Source of the DNA: a virus
Virus record (IMG/VR): IMGVR_UViG_3300009068_000001
Span: 1-64,000 of that record
Reading direction: 5' to 3' (one strand)
Length of the DNA: 64,000 nucleotides
Below are positions 1,997 to 63,967 of the stretch, in pieces (position 1 is the first letter of the stretch; every line of letters starts with the position of its first letter). The notes under the pieces were generated by a model. It was not told where the DNA came from and did not search any database. It saw nothing but the letters and a program-made list of their open reading frames with translations. Made by a program: the position numbers and the translations under genes.

Positions 1997-3406
1997 ATGG
2001 ACATAGCAATGTTCACTGAGTCATACAGTGAGGATCTTGATGGCAAGCGTCGTCAAGTTCTTCTTGTTCCACACGATAATAATATGCGTGTGTACTCTCG
2101 GTTAACGGATGGAACAAAGGGCCCCCACAATAAGTGGGAGGAAACTACTCTAACCGAACTGACAACTGAGATCTTTGACGAAGAGATATTGACACGCAGC
2201 CCTGTTGGTGTATATGTTACACCCGCAGATGAACGTGCAATTACTTCCAAGGGATACTCACCAGTGTTGGGCACCAAGGCATGCGACAAGCATTCCAAGG
2301 CTGACCTACCAGAAGATAAAACACCGGCAGTAGAAGTCATTTGTGGCCTCTACGAAAAAGTAAGTATAGGAGATGACTCATTGGAAACATACGTAACAGA
2401 TAACCGTGCTTCAACTAGCACGACAGTTCCATTGGTAGTTACTGTTCCAACACAAACAAACGAGGACGCTGCACCTGTTCAACAGTCCGCATCTCCATCG
2501 TTTGCTGTGTCATTAGCAACAGTTCCTCCAATTGAACTAGCTGAACGTTACATCCACCGTAAAGTCTATGGAGTTCAAGACTTCAAGACTTTTGATAAGG
2601 CTCGCAAGAACCATATCAATGTTCTTATCTACGGCCCAACAGGTCCAGGTAAGACTACAGCTGTTGAAGCGTGGGCCGCAGAACGTGGTCTTCGCATGGC
2701 AACAGTATCGGGTAACGCATCTATGGAATCTCGCCAATTATTCGGTGGCTTTATTCCTGACGGTGTTGGTGGCTATGGGTGGATTGATGGCCCAGTCACT
2801 GACGTAGTTCGCAACGGTGGTGTTCTATTGCTGGACGAGATGAACTTCATCAGTCCTAAAATCTACACCACTTTATATCCACTAACCGATGGTCGTCGTG
2901 CCATCACGCTATTGGACCACATGGGTGAAACAATTGTGGCTCACAAAGACTTAACAATCTTTGCAACCATGAACCCAGATTACATCGGCACCACACCGCT
3001 CAACTTTGCTATGCGTAACCGCTTTGACATTCAACTGTCATGGGATTACGATGACAACGTAGAGTCTCAACTGATTACATCTAAATCTTTGCTTCTTCTA
3101 GTAAAGCAATTGCGTGCTGAAGCAGCCAAGGGTCAGTATGAAACACCTATCTCAACTAACATGCTCATGGAAATCGAAGACTTCATCAAGGATGAAGATC
3201 TCGGCTATGTGTTTGCAGTTGAAAACTTCATTGCTCACTTCTCAGCAGACGAGCAAGCATCAGTGCGTTTGGTATTCCAGACACACGAATACAACATCAA
3301 GACTGACTTTGGTATCGAAATACCAGTTGAGTTAGAGAAGGAAGCAGATGTTGATATCGATACTCAGCTAGCACAGTGGGTATCAGCACAGTCCACCACA
3401 GTCTAA
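1997..3406 (+). CDS. MoxR/CbbQ/CobS-type AAA+ ATPase
   Basis: An ATP-dependent remodelling ATPase, 469 aa. The first 170 residues are a non-conserved, partly Thr/Pro-rich arm. The AAA+ core begins near residue 180: Walker A GPTGPGKT at 213-220, Walker B VLLLDE at 276-281, sensor 1 FATMNP around 323-328, and FAMRNRF with an arginine-finger-like Arg around 340-342. This fits the dynein-related/MoxR class (AAA_5), which also holds CbbQ, NorQ and CobS. Members usually work with a VWA-domain partner, and exactly such a gene follows 9 nt downstream. The ribosome binding site AGAAAGG supports the start. The client protein cannot be read from sequence; cobaltochelatase, Rubisco-activase-like or general chaperone roles are all possible in this family. 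Confidence 0.9.
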   Translation: MDIAMFTESYSEDLDGKRRQVLLVPHDNNMRVYSRLTDGTKGPHNKWEETTLTELTTEIFDEEILTRSPVGVYVTPADERAITSKGYSPVLGTKACDKHSKADLPEDKTPAVEVICGLYEKVSIGDDSLETYVTDNRASTSTTVPLVVTVPTQTNEDAAPVQQSASPSFAVSLATVPPIELAERYIHRKVYGVQDFKTFDKARKNHINVLIYGPTGPGKTTAVEAWAAERGLRMATVSGNASMESRQLFGGFIPDGVGGYGWIDGPVTDVVRNGGVLLLDEMNFISPKIYTTLYPLTDGRRAITLLDHMGETIVAHKDLTIFATMNPDYIGTTPLNFAMRNRFDIQLSWDYDDNVESQLITSKSLLLLVKQLRAEAAKGQYETPISTNMLMEIEDFIKDEDLGYVFAVENFIAHFSADEQASVRLVFQTHEYNIKTDFGIEIPVELEKEADVDIDTQLAQWVSAQSTTV

Positions 3407-3415
3407 GGAGGTTAT

Positions 3416-5269
3416 ATGTTTCAAGAAGACCTAAATGAACAGTGGTATATGAAAGAGAAAGATGAGGAAACACAGCTACGTGCTGTAAGACTCAATGCTC
3501 TCTGTCGTGTGTACGAACAAGCTGACCGTGTTCTCTCTGGAGACCCGGTCATTATTAATGTAGTAGAGGATGGTCCAGCACCTGCGTGGTCTGACGGTCA
3601 ATCTATTACCTTTAATGCTAGTGAGATTGAGGAGATGGATCTTGAGACACTAACTCAAGTCAATGGCCTGAACTATCACGAGCTTGCTCATCATTTGTAC
3701 ACACCTCGTAAAGGTACTACGTTCATCAAGTGGGTTATGGAGAATGACTATCTTGAGTCTGCAAACATGTTGGAAGACCAACGTATCGAGACTTTGTTAG
3801 TTGCTCGCTATCCATCCATTGCACCGTATCTAACAGCCACAGTTGCTAGGTGGTTGTCAAGCACACCCGAAGAGGCTATAGGTAACTATATGCTAGTGCG
3901 TGGTCGTAGATACTTACCAATTGAAATCAGACAAGCATTCAGAGATATGTTTGCTAAGCCTGAACTCGTGCCAGTCATTGCAGATATTGTAGATCAATAT
4001 CGTGTGCTGGCATTCCCACGTGACTATGCCAAAGGTCAAGAGCTAATCAAACGTTGGAACGATGAGGTACTAGGAAAGCTAGACTTCCCTAAGATGCCTC
4101 AAGGTCCTAACGGATGTAGCTCACGTGATCCTGTAGGTAAAGGTCGTCCCGAACCTGGTAAGGCACAGGAGAGAGATGCACAACGTGCTACCGGTATGGG
4201 TAACGCTGAGTCTACAAGTATGCAGGCTAAGCCTAATCCAACTACCAACACAAACAAACCACCGCAACCACGCACAGCTGAAGAAGCTCTAGCAATTAGA
4301 GAGCAAGCACAGCAATCAGAACAAGGACAAGAACCTGGTGGATTACAACCTGGTACAGGTCATGTAGAAAGCGTAGGTGGAATACCTAACAACGTACAAG
4401 AACTGCTTGAGGATACCATCCAATCAGTGTTAGAACGTAAAGACGTTCAACAGGATGTTAAGACGAAGCAAAAAGTAATTGTAGGTGGCGATGGTAAGCA
4501 CGATGATGTAGTCAAGAAAGGCAAGTTCGATATAACTACCGTACCTGCTGAATCTATGGTGCTTTATCGTAAGTTTGCACGTGAACTACAACGTTTGCGT
4601 GATGACTGTGAACCTGCGTGGCATCGTGAAGAAGCCAGCGGTAAACTCAATGTTCAACGTGCAATTAGAGGCTGTGAGATTGATCAAGCCTTTGATCGTT
4701 GGGATGAGGGTAACGATGGTGCTGATGTAGAAGCCGTAATCATGGTGGATAGGTCAGGATCTATGTCTGGGGGACGAAATGATATGCATGCATCAATTGC
4801 ATGTTGGACTATCAAACGTGCTCTAGAACAAATCGGTGCACCGGTTACGGTGTACGCATTCGATGATAAGGCTGAGCTAGCTTATGGTCGTAATGAAATG
4901 GCAAGTAGAACACAATACAAGTTCATATATGGCAATGGTGGAACTAATCCATACTCCACATTGCTTGCTGCCGAACAGCTACTCATGTCTTCTCGTAAGA
5001 AAAACAAGATGCTGTTCATGATTACCGATGGTGCGTTTGATGAACATAAGAATGATGAAATCATTCAACGCATATCAAAGCGTGGCATCTTAACAGTCAT
5101 GACTTTAATCATGAGTGATAGAGACATGGAATACTACGAAGATCGTGGTATGGAAGAGAAAACTTGGCGACATGGTACTGAAGTCTATGGCCGTATTAAA
5201 ACAGCCAAAGACTTACTACCATTTGCTAAGTCTGTAGTAACCGGCGCCATCAAAAAACGTGGGCGCTAA
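3416..5269 (+). CDS. VWA-domain protein with N-terminal HExxH zincin-like motif
   Basis: A 617-aa partner for the MoxR-type ATPase, with a near-perfect AAGGAGG ribosome binding site. Residues 88-92 read HELAH, an HExxH zinc-metallopeptidase signature, in an N-terminal region resembling the putative metallopeptidase part of DUF2201-type proteins. Residues about 230-330 are a low-complexity Pro/Gln/Glu linker. The C-terminal third is a VWA domain with the MIDAS motif DRSGS (445-449), a downstream GGTNP Thr and MITDG. CobT and ViaA-type proteins share the VWA but not obviously the HExxH. The order ATPase-VWA is the standard arrangement of MoxR/VWA pairs. Proteolytic activity is an inference from the motif only. 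Confidence 0.85.
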   Translation: MFQEDLNEQWYMKEKDEETQLRAVRLNALCRVYEQADRVLSGDPVIINVVEDGPAPAWSDGQSITFNASEIEEMDLETLTQVNGLNYHELAHHLYTPRKGTTFIKWVMENDYLESANMLEDQRIETLLVARYPSIAPYLTATVARWLSSTPEEAIGNYMLVRGRRYLPIEIRQAFRDMFAKPELVPVIADIVDQYRVLAFPRDYAKGQELIKRWNDEVLGKLDFPKMPQGPNGCSSRDPVGKGRPEPGKAQERDAQRATGMGNAESTSMQAKPNPTTNTNKPPQPRTAEEALAIREQAQQSEQGQEPGGLQPGTGHVESVGGIPNNVQELLEDTIQSVLERKDVQQDVKTKQKVIVGGDGKHDDVVKKGKFDITTVPAESMVLYRKFARELQRLRDDCEPAWHREEASGKLNVQRAIRGCEIDQAFDRWDEGNDGADVEAVIMVDRSGSMSGGRNDMHASIACWTIKRALEQIGAPVTVYAFDDKAELAYGRNEMASRTQYKFIYGNGGTNPYSTLLAAEQLLMSSRKKNKMLFMITDGAFDEHKNDEIIQRISKRGILTVMTLIMSDRDMEYYEDRGMEEKTWRHGTEVYGRIKTAKDLLPFAKSVVTGAIKKRGR

Positions 5270-55872: not shown

Positions 55873-57657
55873 TTACGCTGTAGCGTTTCCGGTTAGTTGT
55901 CCAATTTTAATGACAACGAACTCTGCTGGGTATTCAAGAGCAACGCCTATTTCAATGTTAACTCTACCGGCTTGAATTTCGGTAAAGGGATTGTTAGTAT
56001 CATTGCATCGCACATAGAATGCTTGACTTGGGTTTGTTCCACGTAAACCACCAGCTGTCCAATAAGCAAGTAGGAAGCTGTTTAGTGTAGTGTTAATTTG
56101 AGACCAAAGATTTGCATCATTATTCTCAAAAAGAGCAAACGATGTTAGATCATTCATAGACTTCTCAATGTAAATCAAAGAGCGTCGAAGATTGATATAA
56201 CGATTATTAGGTGTATTATCAATAGTACGACCGCCCATGATAACAATGCCTGCACCAGGAACCTGACGAATAGCATTAATAGGGTCTACGCTTGTATTGA
56301 TAGTGTCTAGCTCAGCGTTAGTAAATAGGTGCTCAGTAGCTAAGGCAAGAGCCATAACATTTTGAAGACCTGCTGGAGTCTTAGATGGGCCACGGCTTGC
56401 ATCTGTAGCAAGGTACTGACCAACAACACCAGCGCCTGGAGCTTGTAGGCGAGTTACGCCAACGCTCTTAGTTGCATCTGGGATGCTATACCATGGGTAG
56501 TAAGCTGCAGCAATGTTTCCTGCGGTACTTCCAGCAAAGATAGCTGTTGTAGCTGTAACTTGATCTTGTGCTGCAGAAACTGATAGTCCAGAAGGAGTAT
56601 CAATAACAGCAAAGCAATCTGTACGACCAGCAGCATAGATTACAGCATCGCCGTGAATCTGTGCAGTTAGTGTACCAGATGCAGCATATGGAGCATCAGG
56701 TGCGTAAATAACCAATGGGTTAATTACAGAATCAAATGTAGTCCAAGCTGTTGAGTAATCTGTACGACCAGGGGTTCCACCGTCAGCACCACCTGCAAGT
56801 GATGTAGGAGAAACAAGTACTCCAGGAGACTTAGTAGCATCAAAACCTGCTGTAAGAACTGTAATAACAGAGCTAGGATTAGAGTTAATAATTGAACGCA
56901 CAAAGTTTCTGTCTGTAGAAGACATGCTTAGATCAGAATAAGATTCTACCAAGCTAGTTACAGAAGTTCCACTAGTTGTGGTTGTCTGGTAGACCTCTAG
57001 ACCAAAACGGCTAGCAGATCCTGCAGCTACAATCTTAACTGCGTAGTTGCTAGACCAAGATCCTGGGCTAACTGCGTTGACAGTAAATACTGGTGCAGAA
57101 GCTACAGTAGTTACTACAGTAGCTGTAGCAGATGCGCCGGTTACGGCAGTACCTGTAGCAGCGCTTGTAACAGTAAACTGTGAGCCTGAACGAGTTGCAA
57201 TAACTACGTTAGTTAAGTTAAATGCTGTTGTTGAAAGACCAGTAATAGATACGGTTTGTCCAGCAGCAAAAGTATTTGTAGCTGTGTAAGTAATTGTGCC
57301 AGAGGCTGCAGAAGCTGCAGTTACGGTAGCAGTAGCGGTGGTTGTAGTTCCTGTACCATCGTTAATTACTAGAGCACCTACAGCAGAACCTGTTGCAATA
57401 ACACGCTTTACATATAGGTCACGGCCGCCATTAGCAAAAAAGTTATAGGCAGCCCAAGTGGTTGGGTATGAGTCGTTTAATCCACCAAAAGCTTTAACAA
57501 AATCTGTCCAAGTACTTACTAGTACAGGGGCAGTTGTGTTGCCTTTAGGAAGAGCTCCAGCAAATGCGCCAACAGCGTTTGCAGTATTTGCAGGCTGTAC
57601 AGCTTGTTGCAGAGCTACTTCTTGGATATAGACTCCGGGACGGGCAAAGTTTGCCAT
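55873..57657 (-). CDS. tail sheath protein
   Basis: 594 aa contractile sheath subunit. ARPGVYIQEVALQQAV at the start, AFAGALPKGN, FVKAFGGL, YNFFANGGRDLYVKRV (71-86), a long variable part, then NPINAIRQVPGAGIVIMGGR, RYINLRRSLIYIEKSMNDLT and the C-terminal domain ending in GQLTGNA are all classic. Residues about 117-178 form an inserted beta domain (AAGQTVSITGLSTTAFNLTN, FTVTSAATGTAVTG) like that in the baseplate-J protein. Strong ribosome binding site. Confidence 0.95.
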   Translation of the reverse strand: MANFARPGVYIQEVALQQAVQPANTANAVGAFAGALPKGNTTAPVLVSTWTDFVKAFGGLNDSYPTTWAAYNFFANGGRDLYVKRVIATGSAVGALVINDGTGTTTTATATVTAASAASGTITYTATNTFAAGQTVSITGLSTTAFNLTNVVIATRSGSQFTVTSAATGTAVTGASATATVVTTVASAPVFTVNAVSPGSWSSNYAVKIVAAGSASRFGLEVYQTTTTSGTSVTSLVESYSDLSMSSTDRNFVRSIINSNPSSVITVLTAGFDATKSPGVLVSPTSLAGGADGGTPGRTDYSTAWTTFDSVINPLVIYAPDAPYAASGTLTAQIHGDAVIYAAGRTDCFAVIDTPSGLSVSAAQDQVTATTAIFAGSTAGNIAAAYYPWYSIPDATKSVGVTRLQAPGAGVVGQYLATDASRGPSKTPAGLQNVMALALATEHLFTNAELDTINTSVDPINAIRQVPGAGIVIMGGRTIDNTPNNRYINLRRSLIYIEKSMNDLTSFALFENNDANLWSQINTTLNSFLLAYWTAGGLRGTNPSQAFYVRCNDTNNPFTEIQAGRVNIEIGVALEYPAEFVVIKIGQLTGNATA

Positions 57658-59541: not shown

Positions 59542-60123
59542 CTATAGTGAAGTCTGATCAAAGGCAGAATACCCAGCATAGTGCTGGAACTGCGAATCAT
59601 TGACAAGCTCTTCGGCGTTGACTTGCTCACAGGATACCTGTAACAAGGTGTATTTGTCTTTGATTATACCTCTAGGAGATACCTGTGTAGGTGAAAAGAC
59701 TTCATTTCTAAAGACAATTCGATCACGTAGGTAAGCATCTGGGTTGATCTCTACAGTTGAAAGCTCACGACGATTAGCCGCATTTCCACCATAGAAATTT
59801 AAATGGTTCTCAATAACGTCAACGTTAATGGTTACAGTTAAGATATCGGTGTTATAAAAACCGCGGTCGTTCTGTACTGTAGCACCCTGCTCTAGGTGAG
59901 CATTAACTACGGGAATAGTAAATGGGCTGAGCCACTTACGACCTCCACCAATAACTGAAGATCCTACATCATAGATAGGATCTACTGCAGTATTAACTGG
60001 ATCAAAGATCCACCAGTCTACAAATGTACCTACGGTTTGAACAAGCTCAACGTTAGTTCCCGATGCGCTGGAACCACGTTCGTAGGAGATATTAAATCTG
60101 CCCTCACGTTGATCCCCACGCAT
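59542..60123 (-). CDS. neck/head-tail structural protein candidate, 193 aa
   Basis: Beta-rich with TVGTFVDWWIFDPVN, GGGRKWLSPFTIPVVNAHLE, RGFYNTDILTVTINVDV and LRDRIVFRNEVFSPTQVSPR, a pattern that resembles T4 gp13/gp14-type neck proteins. Upstream of the sheath in transcription. AGGAGCTTAATT start. Assignment tentative. Confidence 0.5.
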   Translation of the reverse strand: MRGDQREGRFNISYERGSSASGTNVELVQTVGTFVDWWIFDPVNTAVDPIYDVGSSVIGGGRKWLSPFTIPVVNAHLEQGATVQNDRGFYNTDILTVTINVDVIENHLNFYGGNAANRRELSTVEINPDAYLRDRIVFRNEVFSPTQVSPRGIIKDKYTLLQVSCEQVNAEELVNDSQFQHYAGYSAFDQTSL

Positions 60124-60125
60124 AA

Positions 60126-60353
60126 TTAAGCTCCTACAATTGGAGGAGTAAAAGACTTAGTTGTTTTGTTGTATGTCCAACCCGGGTAGATATCACTATT
60201 AGTGTCATTCTTGATATCTGTAATATCTACAATAGTAGGTTCACTTAAAAGAATTGCGGCTAGACGATCATGAGTATGTAAAATATCCACTACCTGCCCA
60301 TCAATAATAAAAGCAATTTTATTAAATGGAATTTCGGATGCGTTTCCGGTCAT
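60126..60353 (-). CDS. hypothetical small protein, 75 aa
   Basis: Compact alpha/beta protein: NKIAFIIDGQVVDILHTHDR then LAAILLSEPTIVDITDIKND and a Pro-containing end. AAGGAGACAG start. Similar phage proteins accompany neck and fibre genes; the role is unknown. Confidence 0.5.
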   Translation of the reverse strand: MTGNASEIPFNKIAFIIDGQVVDILHTHDRLAAILLSEPTIVDITDIKNDTNSDIYPGWTYNKTTKSFTPPIVGA

Positions 60354-60595
60354 TCTGTCTCCTTAAATGATACTTGCATTACGCCCCACTTACCAAGTGG
60401 ACACGAGGCATTAGGAAGCTTTGTCTTTAGATTCATCATACATCCGCACTCTTTGCACTGGTTAGTTAATTTAATTAACTGAGGGCATTCAAGGCAAATA
60501 TTAAATCTTTGTTCTGCTATCTCTGTTTCTACTCGACCTAGGTTCTTATTGAATAAGTCCCACGGGCGTGCAGGTCTTTCAAATGGATCAGCCAT
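60350..60595 (-). CDS. DUF6171-like Cys-rich small protein
   Basis: 81 aa with ICLECPQL, CKECGCMMNLKTKLPNASCP and the ending LGKWGVMQV: the CxxC...CxxCGC...CPxGKW pattern of DUF6171-type proteins, small zinc-binding proteins found in many phages near tail genes. Overlaps the 75-aa gene by 4 nt. Confidence 0.6.
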   Translation of the reverse strand: MADPFERPARPWDLFNKNLGRVETEIAEQRFNICLECPQLIKLTNQCKECGCMMNLKTKLPNASCPLGKWGVMQVSFKETE

Positions 60596-60604
60596 ATTGT
60601 AGTC

Positions 60605-61972
60605 CTAACCAGATATTTTAAAATTGTCTACTGTAGATCCCTGGCCAAATGGGCTAGAGGTCTTAATAATACCATAATTGTTTGCTTTTGCAGGCGAGGT
60701 TGCAGTATGTGTACCAGAGGTTAATAGTCCCGTAAAGTCAGAATTTGAGTAGGCCTGATAACTTAGTACATTTCCTTGAGTATTTAAACGAAGAGCCCCA
60801 ACTGAGCCACTTACGCTTATATCTCCAGTAAGGTTTGTGATAGTTCCACCCACTGAACGAATTAGTTTTATATAATAGTTATTGGTAATTGACCCGCAAG
60901 TTTGGCAACCACCGCCGTATTGATCACAATTAGGGTAAGTTCCACCACCGTAGCAAGTAGACCCGGTATAGTAATATGCAACTCCGCAGTCAGGATTTGC
61001 ACAACTATAGCAAGTAGTTGTTCCGGCTGTTGTAACTGTACAAACACCTGTTGATTGGTTAGCTGTACCGCCGCTTGGGCAACTATAGTAACCAGTACCA
61101 AACGATGTAACGTAGCAACGACCGCCACTTTCAGTACCACTACTACAAGTACAAGTAGTAACTCCACCTGTAGGTATATAGCAGCTGTAGTTACCTGGGT
61201 GACCACTTTCTCCCTCAGGACATTCGTAACAGTATGATCCAGTGCCACCTGAGTAACAATCAGATGTGCTATAACAATTATAGTTGGTTGGGTCATTAAC
61301 TTGAGTTTGACTACATCTACGACCATAAATAACAGCAGAGCCTATATATTTCCAACCACTTACACTTGTTGTACAGTTAGCAGCACCAACATCAGTTACA
61401 GTTGTTCCACCTGGAACATAAGTTCCTTGATAGGTACTAGTACCTCCGCCAGAAGTAGTAGAGCCGCAATAATAACAACTAGTGCAGGTATTATAAACTG
61501 GTACTGGATAAGTATCGCAGTGGCCATTACAGTAACAGTTACATGAATAGGTAGTATTTACTTGGGTTTGAAAAGAAACTAAAGCATACCAGTTATTAGC
61601 ATCGACTACCCAAGCAGCAACACCGGTACCATTACTAACACCGGCTCCTACAGTAACATCGCTAACACCGTAAGCTACGGTAGCAATAGCGTTTGAACTT
61701 GCGGCAGTATCTGATTGAGCAGCAGATCCATTGGCGTACCAAGTACCTGTAACGTTAGTCCAGGTCTCTCCGCTATCTGCTGTACCTAAAACACCTGAAA
61801 CTGAGCGGTTAAAAGAGTCTGTAATTGGACCAAGAAACCAACGTACCCAAGTAGTAGCGTCTGTTTTTAACCAAGCGCTCTTAGCAAGGCCCCAAGAATT
61901 GGAGCTTGTTTTTACTTGAACGTCAGTTACGCTACCCCAGTTGCTGGCATCTAATTTTATTTTGGCAGGCAT
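60605..61972 (-). CDS. tail-fibre-type protein with jelly-roll split by a 26-Cys insert
   Basis: 455 aa. N-terminal NWGSVTDVQVKTSSNSWGLA then WLKTDATTWVRWFLGPITDS marks a fibre-attachment start. Residues about 50-138 (FNRSVSGVLGTADSGETWTN, VTVGAGVSNGTGVAAWVVDA) are the first half of a concanavalin-like jelly roll; its second half resumes at about 362 (NNYYIKLIRSVGGTITNLTG, SVGALRLNTQGNVLSYQAY). Between them, residues 144-359 form an insert with 26 cysteines in short knots (CNCYCNGHC, CTSCYYC, CYSCANPDC, CQTC). No frameshift is needed. Disulfide- or metal-stabilised display module; receptor binding likely. Confidence 0.7.
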   Translation of the reverse strand: MPAKIKLDASNWGSVTDVQVKTSSNSWGLAKSAWLKTDATTWVRWFLGPITDSFNRSVSGVLGTADSGETWTNVTGTWYANGSAAQSDTAASSNAIATVAYGVSDVTVGAGVSNGTGVAAWVVDANNWYALVSFQTQVNTTYSCNCYCNGHCDTYPVPVYNTCTSCYYCGSTTSGGGTSTYQGTYVPGGTTVTDVGAANCTTSVSGWKYIGSAVIYGRRCSQTQVNDPTNYNCYSTSDCYSGGTGSYCYECPEGESGHPGNYSCYIPTGGVTTCTCSSGTESGGRCYVTSFGTGYYSCPSGGTANQSTGVCTVTTAGTTTCYSCANPDCGVAYYYTGSTCYGGGTYPNCDQYGGGCQTCGSITNNYYIKLIRSVGGTITNLTGDISVSGSVGALRLNTQGNVLSYQAYSNSDFTGLLTSGTHTATSPAKANNYGIIKTSSPFGQGSTVDNFKISG

Positions 61973-62904
61973 TATGCGTAGACAATCCAGATATCCCCGA
62001 CGTTGCCGTCGCTGCTTATTGGTGCTACAGTTCTTGTATAAACGTTTCGGACAACTCCTGAGCCAAGGGCTGCAGTAGTAACTGTTCCATTACTTTGACC
62101 AACATAAGATGTTACTGGTGCTACCCAAGTAGCAGTTGTGCCGTTGCTTGTTAAAACGGTTCCATTGGCGCCTATGCCGAGTCTAGATACAGCTCCAGCT
62201 CCTGACCCAAGGATAAGGTCTCCGGCCGTTGTAACGGTCGCTAGAGGGATTTTAGAGGTATCTGTAGGCACACCCCAGACAACTGAACCAGCACTTACAA
62301 TAAGTGATTGACCGTTAGATCCAATACCTAGGCGAGTAACTGTTGCGTTACCAGATCCCAGAATAAGATCTCCCGCAGTTGTAATTGTAGCTAGGGGAAT
62401 CTTAGATGCCGCAGCTGTGGTATTTGAACTAATTGATGTAGTAAGAGTTGTGTAATCAGAACTACCTACATAGAGAACGTTAGATGTAGCAACCTTAGGC
62501 AAACCAGCTGCGTCTAAGTTAAAACCAAGTACGCTTGCGTATGAGTAAGCTTCGATAAGATTAAGACTTGTAGCTCCAGCACGAAGGGTTAAGCCCTTGT
62601 TGTTAGTGGTAGTGATTGTGCTTCCACCAGAAATTAGTGGGTAAGGAGCTCCAGATACACCAGAGATAAGACCAGCCTCAATATTAGCAATACGATCATA
62701 AACAGTTCCCCAAGTAGTTGCTTGAGAGAATGAGCCAGACCATGTAGAGGTAAGAGGGTTTTGCGATGTAGCAGCGCTACCTAGTACCGCCTCAATCTGC
62801 TTAACTTCCTCTTGGAGGGAGTTAACGTTGTCCGCAATAACAGTGTTGACAAGGTCTTGCTGAGCGGTATAGTTTCTTACGCTATTGGGAAATACTGCTG
62901 CCAT
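61972..62904 (-). CDS. tail fibre protein with internal repeats, 310 aa
   Basis: N-terminal coiled-coil-like VRNYTAQQDLVNTVIADNVN SLQEEVKQIEAVL (two parts) suggests a trimeric attachment stalk. Two copies of KIPLAT(I/V)TTAGDLILGSG...V(T/S)RLGIG(S/A)NG (about 175-265) are beta repeats common in phage fibres. Ends in a short beta cap (GNVGDIWIVYA). Good TAGGATTTAAAC start. Confidence 0.75.
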   Translation of the reverse strand: MAAVFPNSVRNYTAQQDLVNTVIADNVNSLQEEVKQIEAVLGSAATSQNPLTSTWSGSFSQATTWGTVYDRIANIEAGLISGVSGAPYPLISGGSTITTTNNKGLTLRAGATSLNLIEAYSYASVLGFNLDAAGLPKVATSNVLYVGSSDYTTLTTSISSNTTAAASKIPLATITTAGDLILGSGNATVTRLGIGSNGQSLIVSAGSVVWGVPTDTSKIPLATVTTAGDLILGSGAGAVSRLGIGANGTVLTSNGTTATWVAPVTSYVGQSNGTVTTAALGSGVVRNVYTRTVAPISSDGNVGDIWIVYA

Positions 62905-62971: not shown

Positions 62972-63967
62972 CTAAAGTGCGTATCGAATAACTACTAGTC
63001 CTGGTCCACCAGCTGTGTGATAATTTGGCTTACACACACCTGGAATATAATATTGATTGGTACTTTGAGGTGCGTTTGGAGCCTCAGCATAGTAAGAAAC
63101 ATCATTACCTGTAGTAGTTGTACCTGAAGTTACTCCGCCGACATATCCTGCACCACCGCCCCCAGCTGAAGAGTAGTAATCACTTCCACCACCGCCACCA
63201 TAGAAACCAGCTCCACCGCCACCGCCACCATAAGTGCCGTTATTAGACATAGAGCTCCCGTCTCCTCCGCCACCAAAACCACCTAGTTGACGGGTGTTTC
63301 CAGAAGGAGATCCATACCCACCGTATAGTGCGCCTCCAGCTTGGCCATCACCATAGCCACCACCAGTGTCAGGACCAAAAGCACCACCAGCAGATTGAGT
63401 TCCTCCATAGCCACCTACACGTCCAGTACCAATAGGTCCTCCACGATTATCGCTATAACCACGGTTACCTGTAGTACCGCCACCTGCACCACCGTTAGCA
63501 GCAGAGCCGCTACCTCCAGAACCACCACCACCGCCAGCTGCAATAATTAAAGCACGTGCTTGACCTGTGGCATCAAATGTAACTGTAGAGCTTCCTGAGA
63601 ATACGCCGCTTAATCCTCCGCCACCCCCAGCATACCCTGCTATGTTAGAGCCTTTAGATCCGCCGCCTCCTACAATAACTGCGTAGTCTTGAGCAGAAGC
63701 AATAGTTAAAGTACCTGTTGAATACCCGCCAGAACCACCGGAAGATTGATCACCACCACCGCCAGCTGCACCCCAGCAAAAAATTTCTACTGTTATTGGC
63801 TTTCCTACAGAAAACGTAGCTTGACCAACAGTAGAGAAAGTATGTATGCGATATCCATTTGCTACAGTAATTGTTCCACCAGTAACGGGTGCGCTAAGAT
63901 GATCCCAAGACAAAGATCGTTTTGTTCCTGATGCAGAACTTGATGTTGATAGATTACGAATTCCCAT
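62972..63967 (-). CDS. glycine-rich tail fibre/adhesin, 331 aa
   Basis: After a beta start (GYRIHTFSTVGQATFSVGKP, VEIFCWGAAGGGG) a long Gly-rich stretch with many GGGG blocks (about 75-285) forms a polyglycine-II-type or Gly_rich_2 domain, ending VCKPNYHTAGGPGLVVIRYA, a characteristic terminal motif. Such proteins act as receptor-binding tips. Stop of the next upstream gene overlaps its start (TAATG). Confidence 0.75.
   Translation of the reverse strand: MGIRNLSTSSSASGTKRSLSWDHLSAPVTGGTITVANGYRIHTFSTVGQATFSVGKPITVEIFCWGAAGGGGDQSSGGSGGYSTGTLTIASAQDYAVIVGGGGSKGSNIAGYAGGGGGLSGVFSGSSTVTFDATGQARALIIAAGGGGGSGGSGSAANGGAGGGTTGNRGYSDNRGGPIGTGRVGGYGGTQSAGGAFGPDTGGGYGDGQAGGALYGGYGSPSGNTRQLGGFGGGGDGSSMSNNGTYGGGGGGAGFYGGGGGSDYYSSAGGGGAGYVGGVTSGTTTTGNDVSYYAEAPNAPQSTNQYYIPGVCKPNYHTAGGPGLVVIRYAL

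Follow-up and report, generated by a model that had tools for sequence, protein, structure and literature searches.

A 455-amino-acid protein encoded in the 64,000-nucleotide stretch of viral DNA that we analysed (the window; positions 1 to 64,000 of the 99.8-kb IMG/VR record IMGVR_UViG_3300009068_000001) carries a cysteine-rich insert, 216 residues long, inside its jelly roll. Our best explanation, which we hold to be likely as a whole, is that the protein is a tail-fibre or minor-tail adhesin of a contractile-tailed phage, and that the insert is a disulfide-braced, fast-evolving beta-ribbon arm which extends from the fibre jelly roll, is oxidised after lysis and probably contacts the host. 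The bond state, the oxidation after release, the location in the virion and the contact with a receptor are what we infer from the findings described below.

The fibre gene and its cysteine-rich insert

The gene belongs to a fibre cluster that is flanked by head genes and tail genes; the phage is contractile-tailed, with its tail sheath gene at 55873-57657. Its parts and the syntenic gene upstream of it are as follows.

60605..61972, minus strand: tail-fibre or minor tail type protein, 455 aa (open reading frame; tail-gene synteny and homologues; Foldseek matches to actinophage minor tail proteins)
61832..61972, minus strand: putative N-terminal anchor, residues 1-47 (alignment; the related loci L078 and L079 keep this segment with a different distal part)
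61544..61831, minus strand: first part of the predicted concanavalin-like jelly roll, residues 48-143 (AlphaFold2 blocks of pLDDT 90-98 to residue 140; homology to Dryad gp26 across the empty site)
61529..61594, minus strand: predicted outgoing stalk strand, residues 127-148, which passes without a break from sandwich to insert and bears C144, C146 and C148 (predicted secondary structure)
60896..61543, minus strand: cysteine-rich insert, residues 144-359, 26 Cys (cysteine counts, homologue alignment, parity and covariation, AlphaFold2 model)
60851..60913, minus strand: predicted returning stalk strand, residues 354-374, with C356 and C359 (predicted secondary structure)
60608..60895, minus strand: second part of the predicted jelly roll, residues 360-455 (AlphaFold2 blocks of pLDDT 86-96 from residue 361; alignment)
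61972..62904, minus strand: upstream fibre-type gene, 310 aa, whose stop overlaps the start of the 455-aa fibre gene; syntenic marker of the locus

The original prediction had counted 26 cysteines in residues 144-359, and this count was borne out: the insert maps exactly onto 61543-60896, its motifs include CxCxC (144/146/148), CxC (274/276) and five CxxC, and the remaining 239 residues of the protein are devoid of cysteine. With 5.7% cysteine, the fibre is the top outlier among about 90 non-overlapping open reading frames of at least 100 aa in the record, whose mean is 0.68%; at this background about 1.5 cysteines would be expected in 216 residues as against the 26 observed, and the density is therefore not due to chance. 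The reading frame is kept across the insert in four close homologues, and among close homologues the dN/dS of the insert is 0.09-0.45, that of the flanks also being below 1. The GC content is 43% in the insert and 42% in the flanks, and the insert composition also equals that of the window. This native base composition together with a dN/dS below 1 indicates that the insert is truly coding, with no obvious sign of foreign origin. In the same close homologues dN is 0.085-0.33 in the insert versus 0.035-0.12 in the flanks, that is, one to nine times the flank value with omega below 1; judged by these rates, the insert evolves faster than its flanks, yet under selection. This would fit the suggestion in the original prediction that the loop varies for host range.

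Two candidates were tried and rejected in connection with this variation. Exchange of inserts among the five closest homologues is not claimed, since the nonsynonymous distances are discordant and the synonymous ones are not. The gene was also considered as the target of a diversity-generating retroelement, and this was dropped: no RVT_1 was found in the 99.8-kb, possibly incomplete record, while control genomes gave matches.

A little downstream of the fibre gene, a 193-aa gene (59542-60123) has homologues among cultured phages in Streptomyces phages only, which makes an actinobacterial host likely; judging from these homologues, the host is probably an actinobacterium among the water bacteria related to Streptomyces. 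Directly downstream of the fibre gene (60350-60595, minus strand) lies an 81-aa protein with a small cysteine cluster, which matches Pfam DUF6171 (E 6e-7) and PHROG 13558 (E 3e-16); a similar protein stands at the same position in L035. Beside the fibre locus of that related phage we noted a 502-aa gene (L035:654-2162, minus strand) that by eye resembles a flavin-dependent tryptophan halogenase ('GGGTAGWIAAYF'). The same cluster also holds glycine-rich fibre-type proteins (62972-63967, minus strand; L036:468-1400; L036:3745-4614), the first of which gives a weak match to the ALK/LTK glycine-rich domain, and in L062 a glycine-rich domain of that type is fused onto the end of the cysteine-rich fibre. 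At the other end of the window (1997-5269, plus strand), adjoining genes for an ATPase-like (469 aa) and a VWA-like (617 aa) protein resemble by eye a MoxR/CobS-CobT-like pair.

The jelly roll and its changing inserts

An AlphaFold2 model built on the 30-sequence family alignment reached a mean pLDDT of 74, an earlier run with only five close homologues having given pLDDT 40. Ten-residue block means are 82-98 in residues 1-140 and 361-455, which is nearly all of the flanks and is all-beta; the insert itself is modelled at low confidence (pLDDT 35-70). The two flanking halves, originally read as parts of one concanavalin-like sandwich, were indeed folded by AlphaFold2 into a single sandwich. 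Together, strands 127-148 and 354-374 of the prediction make up a single unbroken hairpin that runs from the sandwich to inside the insert; since the strand ends have i+j sums of about 501-502, C146 would lie opposite C356. In this model the insert thus leaves one beta-hairpin loop (127-148/354-374) of an otherwise intact jelly roll, as the original prediction had suspected, and is not a terminal domain.

Homologues lacking the insert give independent evidence that the site also exists empty. A query of the joined flanks finds gp26 of Streptomyces phage Dryad, the BLAST alignment crossing the junction, and the Dryad domain gives uninterrupted single matches of about 200 aa in 17 phage records, all but one of them Streptomyces phages. 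Foldseek against viral models returned six uncharacterised proteins of uncultured phages at E 6e-13 or better, followed (in BFVD) by minor tail proteins of Streptomyces, Arthrobacter, Rhodococcus and Gordonia phages with probability 1.00; a 213-aa viral protein aligned over 466 columns with a TMt of 0.61 represents the fold without the insert. Fold matches in the PDB are lectin-like and include 5ly8, a carbohydrate-binding module of the phage J-1 Dit, and they are weak (E 0.1 or more), as expected because the insert splits the domain. The Pfam LamG and lectin models matched none of the 30 members nor the joined flanks, no Pfam model at all spans the domain, and a sequence search of the joined flanks against the PDB gave chance-level viral glycoprotein matches only. 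The assignment as a concanavalin-like or LamG-type beta sandwich is thus one at the level of the predicted fold only.

We found no match for the 455-aa protein in Pfam or PHROGs. When the insert was searched alone by profile methods, as the original prediction had proposed, no well-known family was matched in Pfam or the PDB, nor did the insert match any of the known small cysteine-rich domains (EGF-like, knottins, zinc ribbons). No relative of the fibre protein was found in the cellular genomes scanned, nor did tblastn with the whole proteins give a match in cultured phages. Some family members match a few unnamed PHROGs, which means that the family had in part been noticed earlier without being described. 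Within the open literature searched, the inserted jelly-roll family matches no described family.

Using the 310-aa upstream gene as bait, we recovered 53 syntenic loci from IMG/VR and, by reading the adjacent gene, about 31 distinct members. The insert sits at the same place in the four close homologues and in more distant ones: in 30 of the 30 aligned members it occupies the same hairpin, at lengths of 104-585 aa, and in all 30 the jelly-roll flanks are without cysteine. By eye, the inserts were assigned to six classes.

Class 1: the window's own, with units like YSCPSGGTLSGTTCY
Class 2: Tyr-rich with CGCSTC
Class 3: CC-rich
Class 4: NYGTCYxxGN, one Cys per 11 residues
Class 5: Cys-free, Tyr-rich (L070, L072)
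Class 6: 52-Cys repeat array (L084)

L015 and L084 have flanks that are 60% identical and inserts that are unrelated, and inserts are therefore replaced as units. The original prediction had asked whether the insert is present or absent as a unit in related phages, and this is borne out, with uninserted homologues existing and whole inserts being swapped between relatives. In one respect the original prediction has to be corrected: the insert does not stand alone but belongs to a set of at least six classes found at one constant site.

Some members stand out by their composition. The class 5 inserts of L070:4912-6018 and L072:892-2109 are 137 and 169 aa long and would be arms without disulfides. 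The L084 protein (L084:703-3162; 820 aa) has its 52 cysteines in about eleven repeats of 27-35 aa, followed by 'TTYTRTSPSNVT' repeats, and its gene has tandem DNA repeats of about 99 bp; a repeat-number polymorphism between L084 and L092 was dropped, L092 being merely truncated. In L078:4528-5703 and L079:4248-5276 the anchor is kept and the jelly roll is replaced by FnIII-like repeats and a proline-rich or Thr-rich tail, the distal parts having 14 and 10 cysteines, again even numbers. As read from the alignment, this is module exchange behind a common N-terminal anchor.

Parity, pairing and mirror symmetry of the cysteines

The number of cysteines is even in 30 of the 30 aligned members; in L094, found in addition to these, the insert holds 14 and one more lies outside it, giving an odd total. 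When the variable cysteine columns were shuffled per group, the product over groups gave an all-even probability of about 1e-5, in a test where invariant groups count as 1 and relatedness within groups is only roughly kept. Moreover, in the window's group of six sequences cysteines turn over in pairs, as listed here for the minus strand.

61517-61519 and 60953-60955, minus strand: C152 and C340 co-vary; both lost only in L015
61484-61486 and 60986-60988, minus strand: C163 and C329 co-vary; L015 lacks both and has Cys at positions 161 and 332 instead
61475-61477 and 61010-61012, minus strand: C166 and C321 co-vary; both lost only in L004
61373-61375 and 61151-61153, minus strand: C200 and C274 co-vary
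61079-61081 and 61040-61042, minus strand: C298 and C311 co-vary; local hairpin repeat, lost together in L005 and L015

The first four pairs are nested (152-340, 163-329, 166-321, 200-274), and the co-varying pair 200/274 has the same i+j, 474-475, as the strands predicted at 199-212 and 263-275. Partners inside the CxxC clusters are ambiguous (166/169 with 321/324). Where a pair is displaced, its sum is nearly preserved: the slide from 163/329 to 161/332 in L015 corresponds to i+j values of 492 and 493, and the rung at 163/287 in L047 is found at 168/282 in L060, both summing to 450.

Constancy of i+j was examined across whole inserts by pairing the cysteines from the two ends inwards, first with last, second with second-last, and taking the SD of the sums. 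In classes 2 and 3 the SD is 1.5-2.5 residues versus 7-12 for random placement (p 0.000-0.008), and against permuted spacings p is 0.0003-0.027. In class 4 it is 0.8-1.5 versus 12-13 for random placement, a symmetry that is not independent of the regular 11-residue spacing, owing to which the permuted-spacing test is uninformative for most members of this class. Class 4 members have 6+6 or 5+5 cysteines around a YG[GS]YY apex, L047 and L060 have 11+11 around it, and the pair 201/234, which L042 has in excess of L050, falls exactly on a predicted rung. Judged from cysteine positions, three or four classes are mirror-symmetric about their middle, the pattern that an antiparallel disulfide ladder would show. 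For the class of the window, symmetry over the entire insert does not reach significance (p 0.33), and only the outer i+j sums of the window insert are stalk-like (503, 502, 497, 492, 492, 490, 490). The regular outer sums combined with the asymmetry of the whole therefore suggest that the window protein has a stalk plus knob and that the inserts of classes 2-4 are ladders throughout; the window's class looks like a laddered stalk bearing a knob.

These patterns bear on other roles that the cysteines might have. Fibres are usually trimers, and the cysteines could form a redox lock, and no arm, by tying a fibre chain to its neighbours or to baseplate proteins. A precedent is the contractile-tail phage Milano, whose mature virion has an extensive disulfide network in tail and fibre proteins, the tail components all being disulfide-crosslinked, partly between chains (PMC10811340). 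We regard such cross-linking as unlikely here: bonds within a chain would be expected to give even counts, paired turnover and mirror symmetry in that chain, as is observed, whereas interchain bonds need no evenness, and the insert is the fastest-evolving part of the protein, unlike an assembly interface. Milano also differs in that its interface cysteines bond between chains and lock contraction, with no cysteine-dense inserted domain reported there, and the apparent even intrachain pattern argues against a lock of this type as the main role of the fibre insert.

A slightly poorer candidate is a metal-loaded insert, its cysteine clusters binding Zn, Fe-S or Cu. This would be compatible with a reducing cytoplasm, the window protein does have CxxC and CxCxC clusters, and metal sites are known in phage fibres of other folds, as with the iron in T4 gp37. 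However, cysteine totals change by two and the insert total is never odd; the positions lost are distant nested pairs and not clusters; class 4 has single cysteines every 11 residues, mirrored about the apex, and the constancy of i+j suits cross-strand disulfides, not Cys4 sites; and histidines are few (2 in the window insert). The original prediction had offered a disulfide-hardened or metal-loaded loop, of which even counts, paired turnover and constant i+j strongly favour the disulfides and, by the same token, disfavour the metal.

We give very little credence to a low-complexity expansion of little function, with cysteines paired because repeats duplicate with two cysteines each: some classes are indeed repeat-built (the tandem arrays of L084, the YSCPSGGTLSGTTCY units of class 1), but no tandem DNA repeat is detectable in the window gene or in L017, the insert omega of 0.09-0.45 speaks for selection, many paired changes are point substitutions rather than repeat gains, and the class 4 repeats carry one cysteine each, the totals being even nonetheless.

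The proposed disulfide-braced arm

We propose that the N-terminal anchor carries the concanavalin-like beta sandwich, one beta-hairpin of which would be lengthened into an antiparallel ribbon cross-braced by disulfides. In the window member, a stalk of about 6-7 rungs would lead to a disulfide-bonded knob, and in other members the entire arm would be a ladder. Tailed phages build their fibres in the reducing cytoplasm, and these fibres usually contain little cysteine; the arm would fold in the cytoplasm in its reduced state and oxidise after lysis in oxic water, becoming a rigid, protease-resistant projection. Thioredoxin, glutaredoxin and DsbA were not found in the phage record. The variable knob or apex, at the distal end, would meet the host surface and diversify quickly while the sandwich stays constant. 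The tail locus, the faster evolution of the insert and the replacement of whole inserts are indirect indications that it is probably a candidate host-surface contact. With less assurance than for the arm itself, we lean towards regarding these inserts as a new architecture, in which giant cystine-ladder ribbons (5 to about 26 disulfides) would serve as hypervariable, rigid host-contact arms in a phage with no recognisable oxidation machinery of its own and be completed after release.

Among known systems, the closest are actinophage minor tail proteins such as gp26 of Dryad and gp27 of KimJongPhill, both Streptomyces phages. These have the same sandwich, alignable across the insertion point, in the same kind of gene in a tail cluster; unlike the present family, they have a hairpin loop of a few residues there, as opposed to 104-585 usually cysteine-rich residues. 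As the nearest functional analogue we would name the bovine ultralong CDR H3, by analogy and not by membership. It too has a beta-ribbon stalk rising from one loop of a beta sandwich with a variable disulfide-bonded knob at the tip, and its cysteines vary in number and pattern with even counts favoured (PMC7366855). It differs in having no homology, in its immunoglobulin fold and in its diversification by somatic mutation, whereas here the diversity is evolutionary, the arm is longer and there are up to 52 cysteines. Theta-defensins and protegrins are antiparallel two-stranded ribbons with stacked cross-strand disulfides and constant i+j; they have two or three rungs and are short free peptides, as opposed to the 5-11 inferred rungs inside a fibre, and they bear no sequence relation to it. 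Finally, the carbohydrate-binding modules of phage baseplates (evolved Dit; 5ly8 of J-1) are likewise lectin-like jelly-roll adhesion modules of phages with Gram-positive hosts, on a different carrier protein and without a giant cysteine-rich hairpin.

The rules of even counts and constant i+j give precise predicted bond maps for dozens of sequences. If the proposed arm is true, it would represent a new route, needing no retroelement, by which a constant scaffold can present a hypervariable binding surface, and it would serve as a natural support for binding loops that are both long and rigid.
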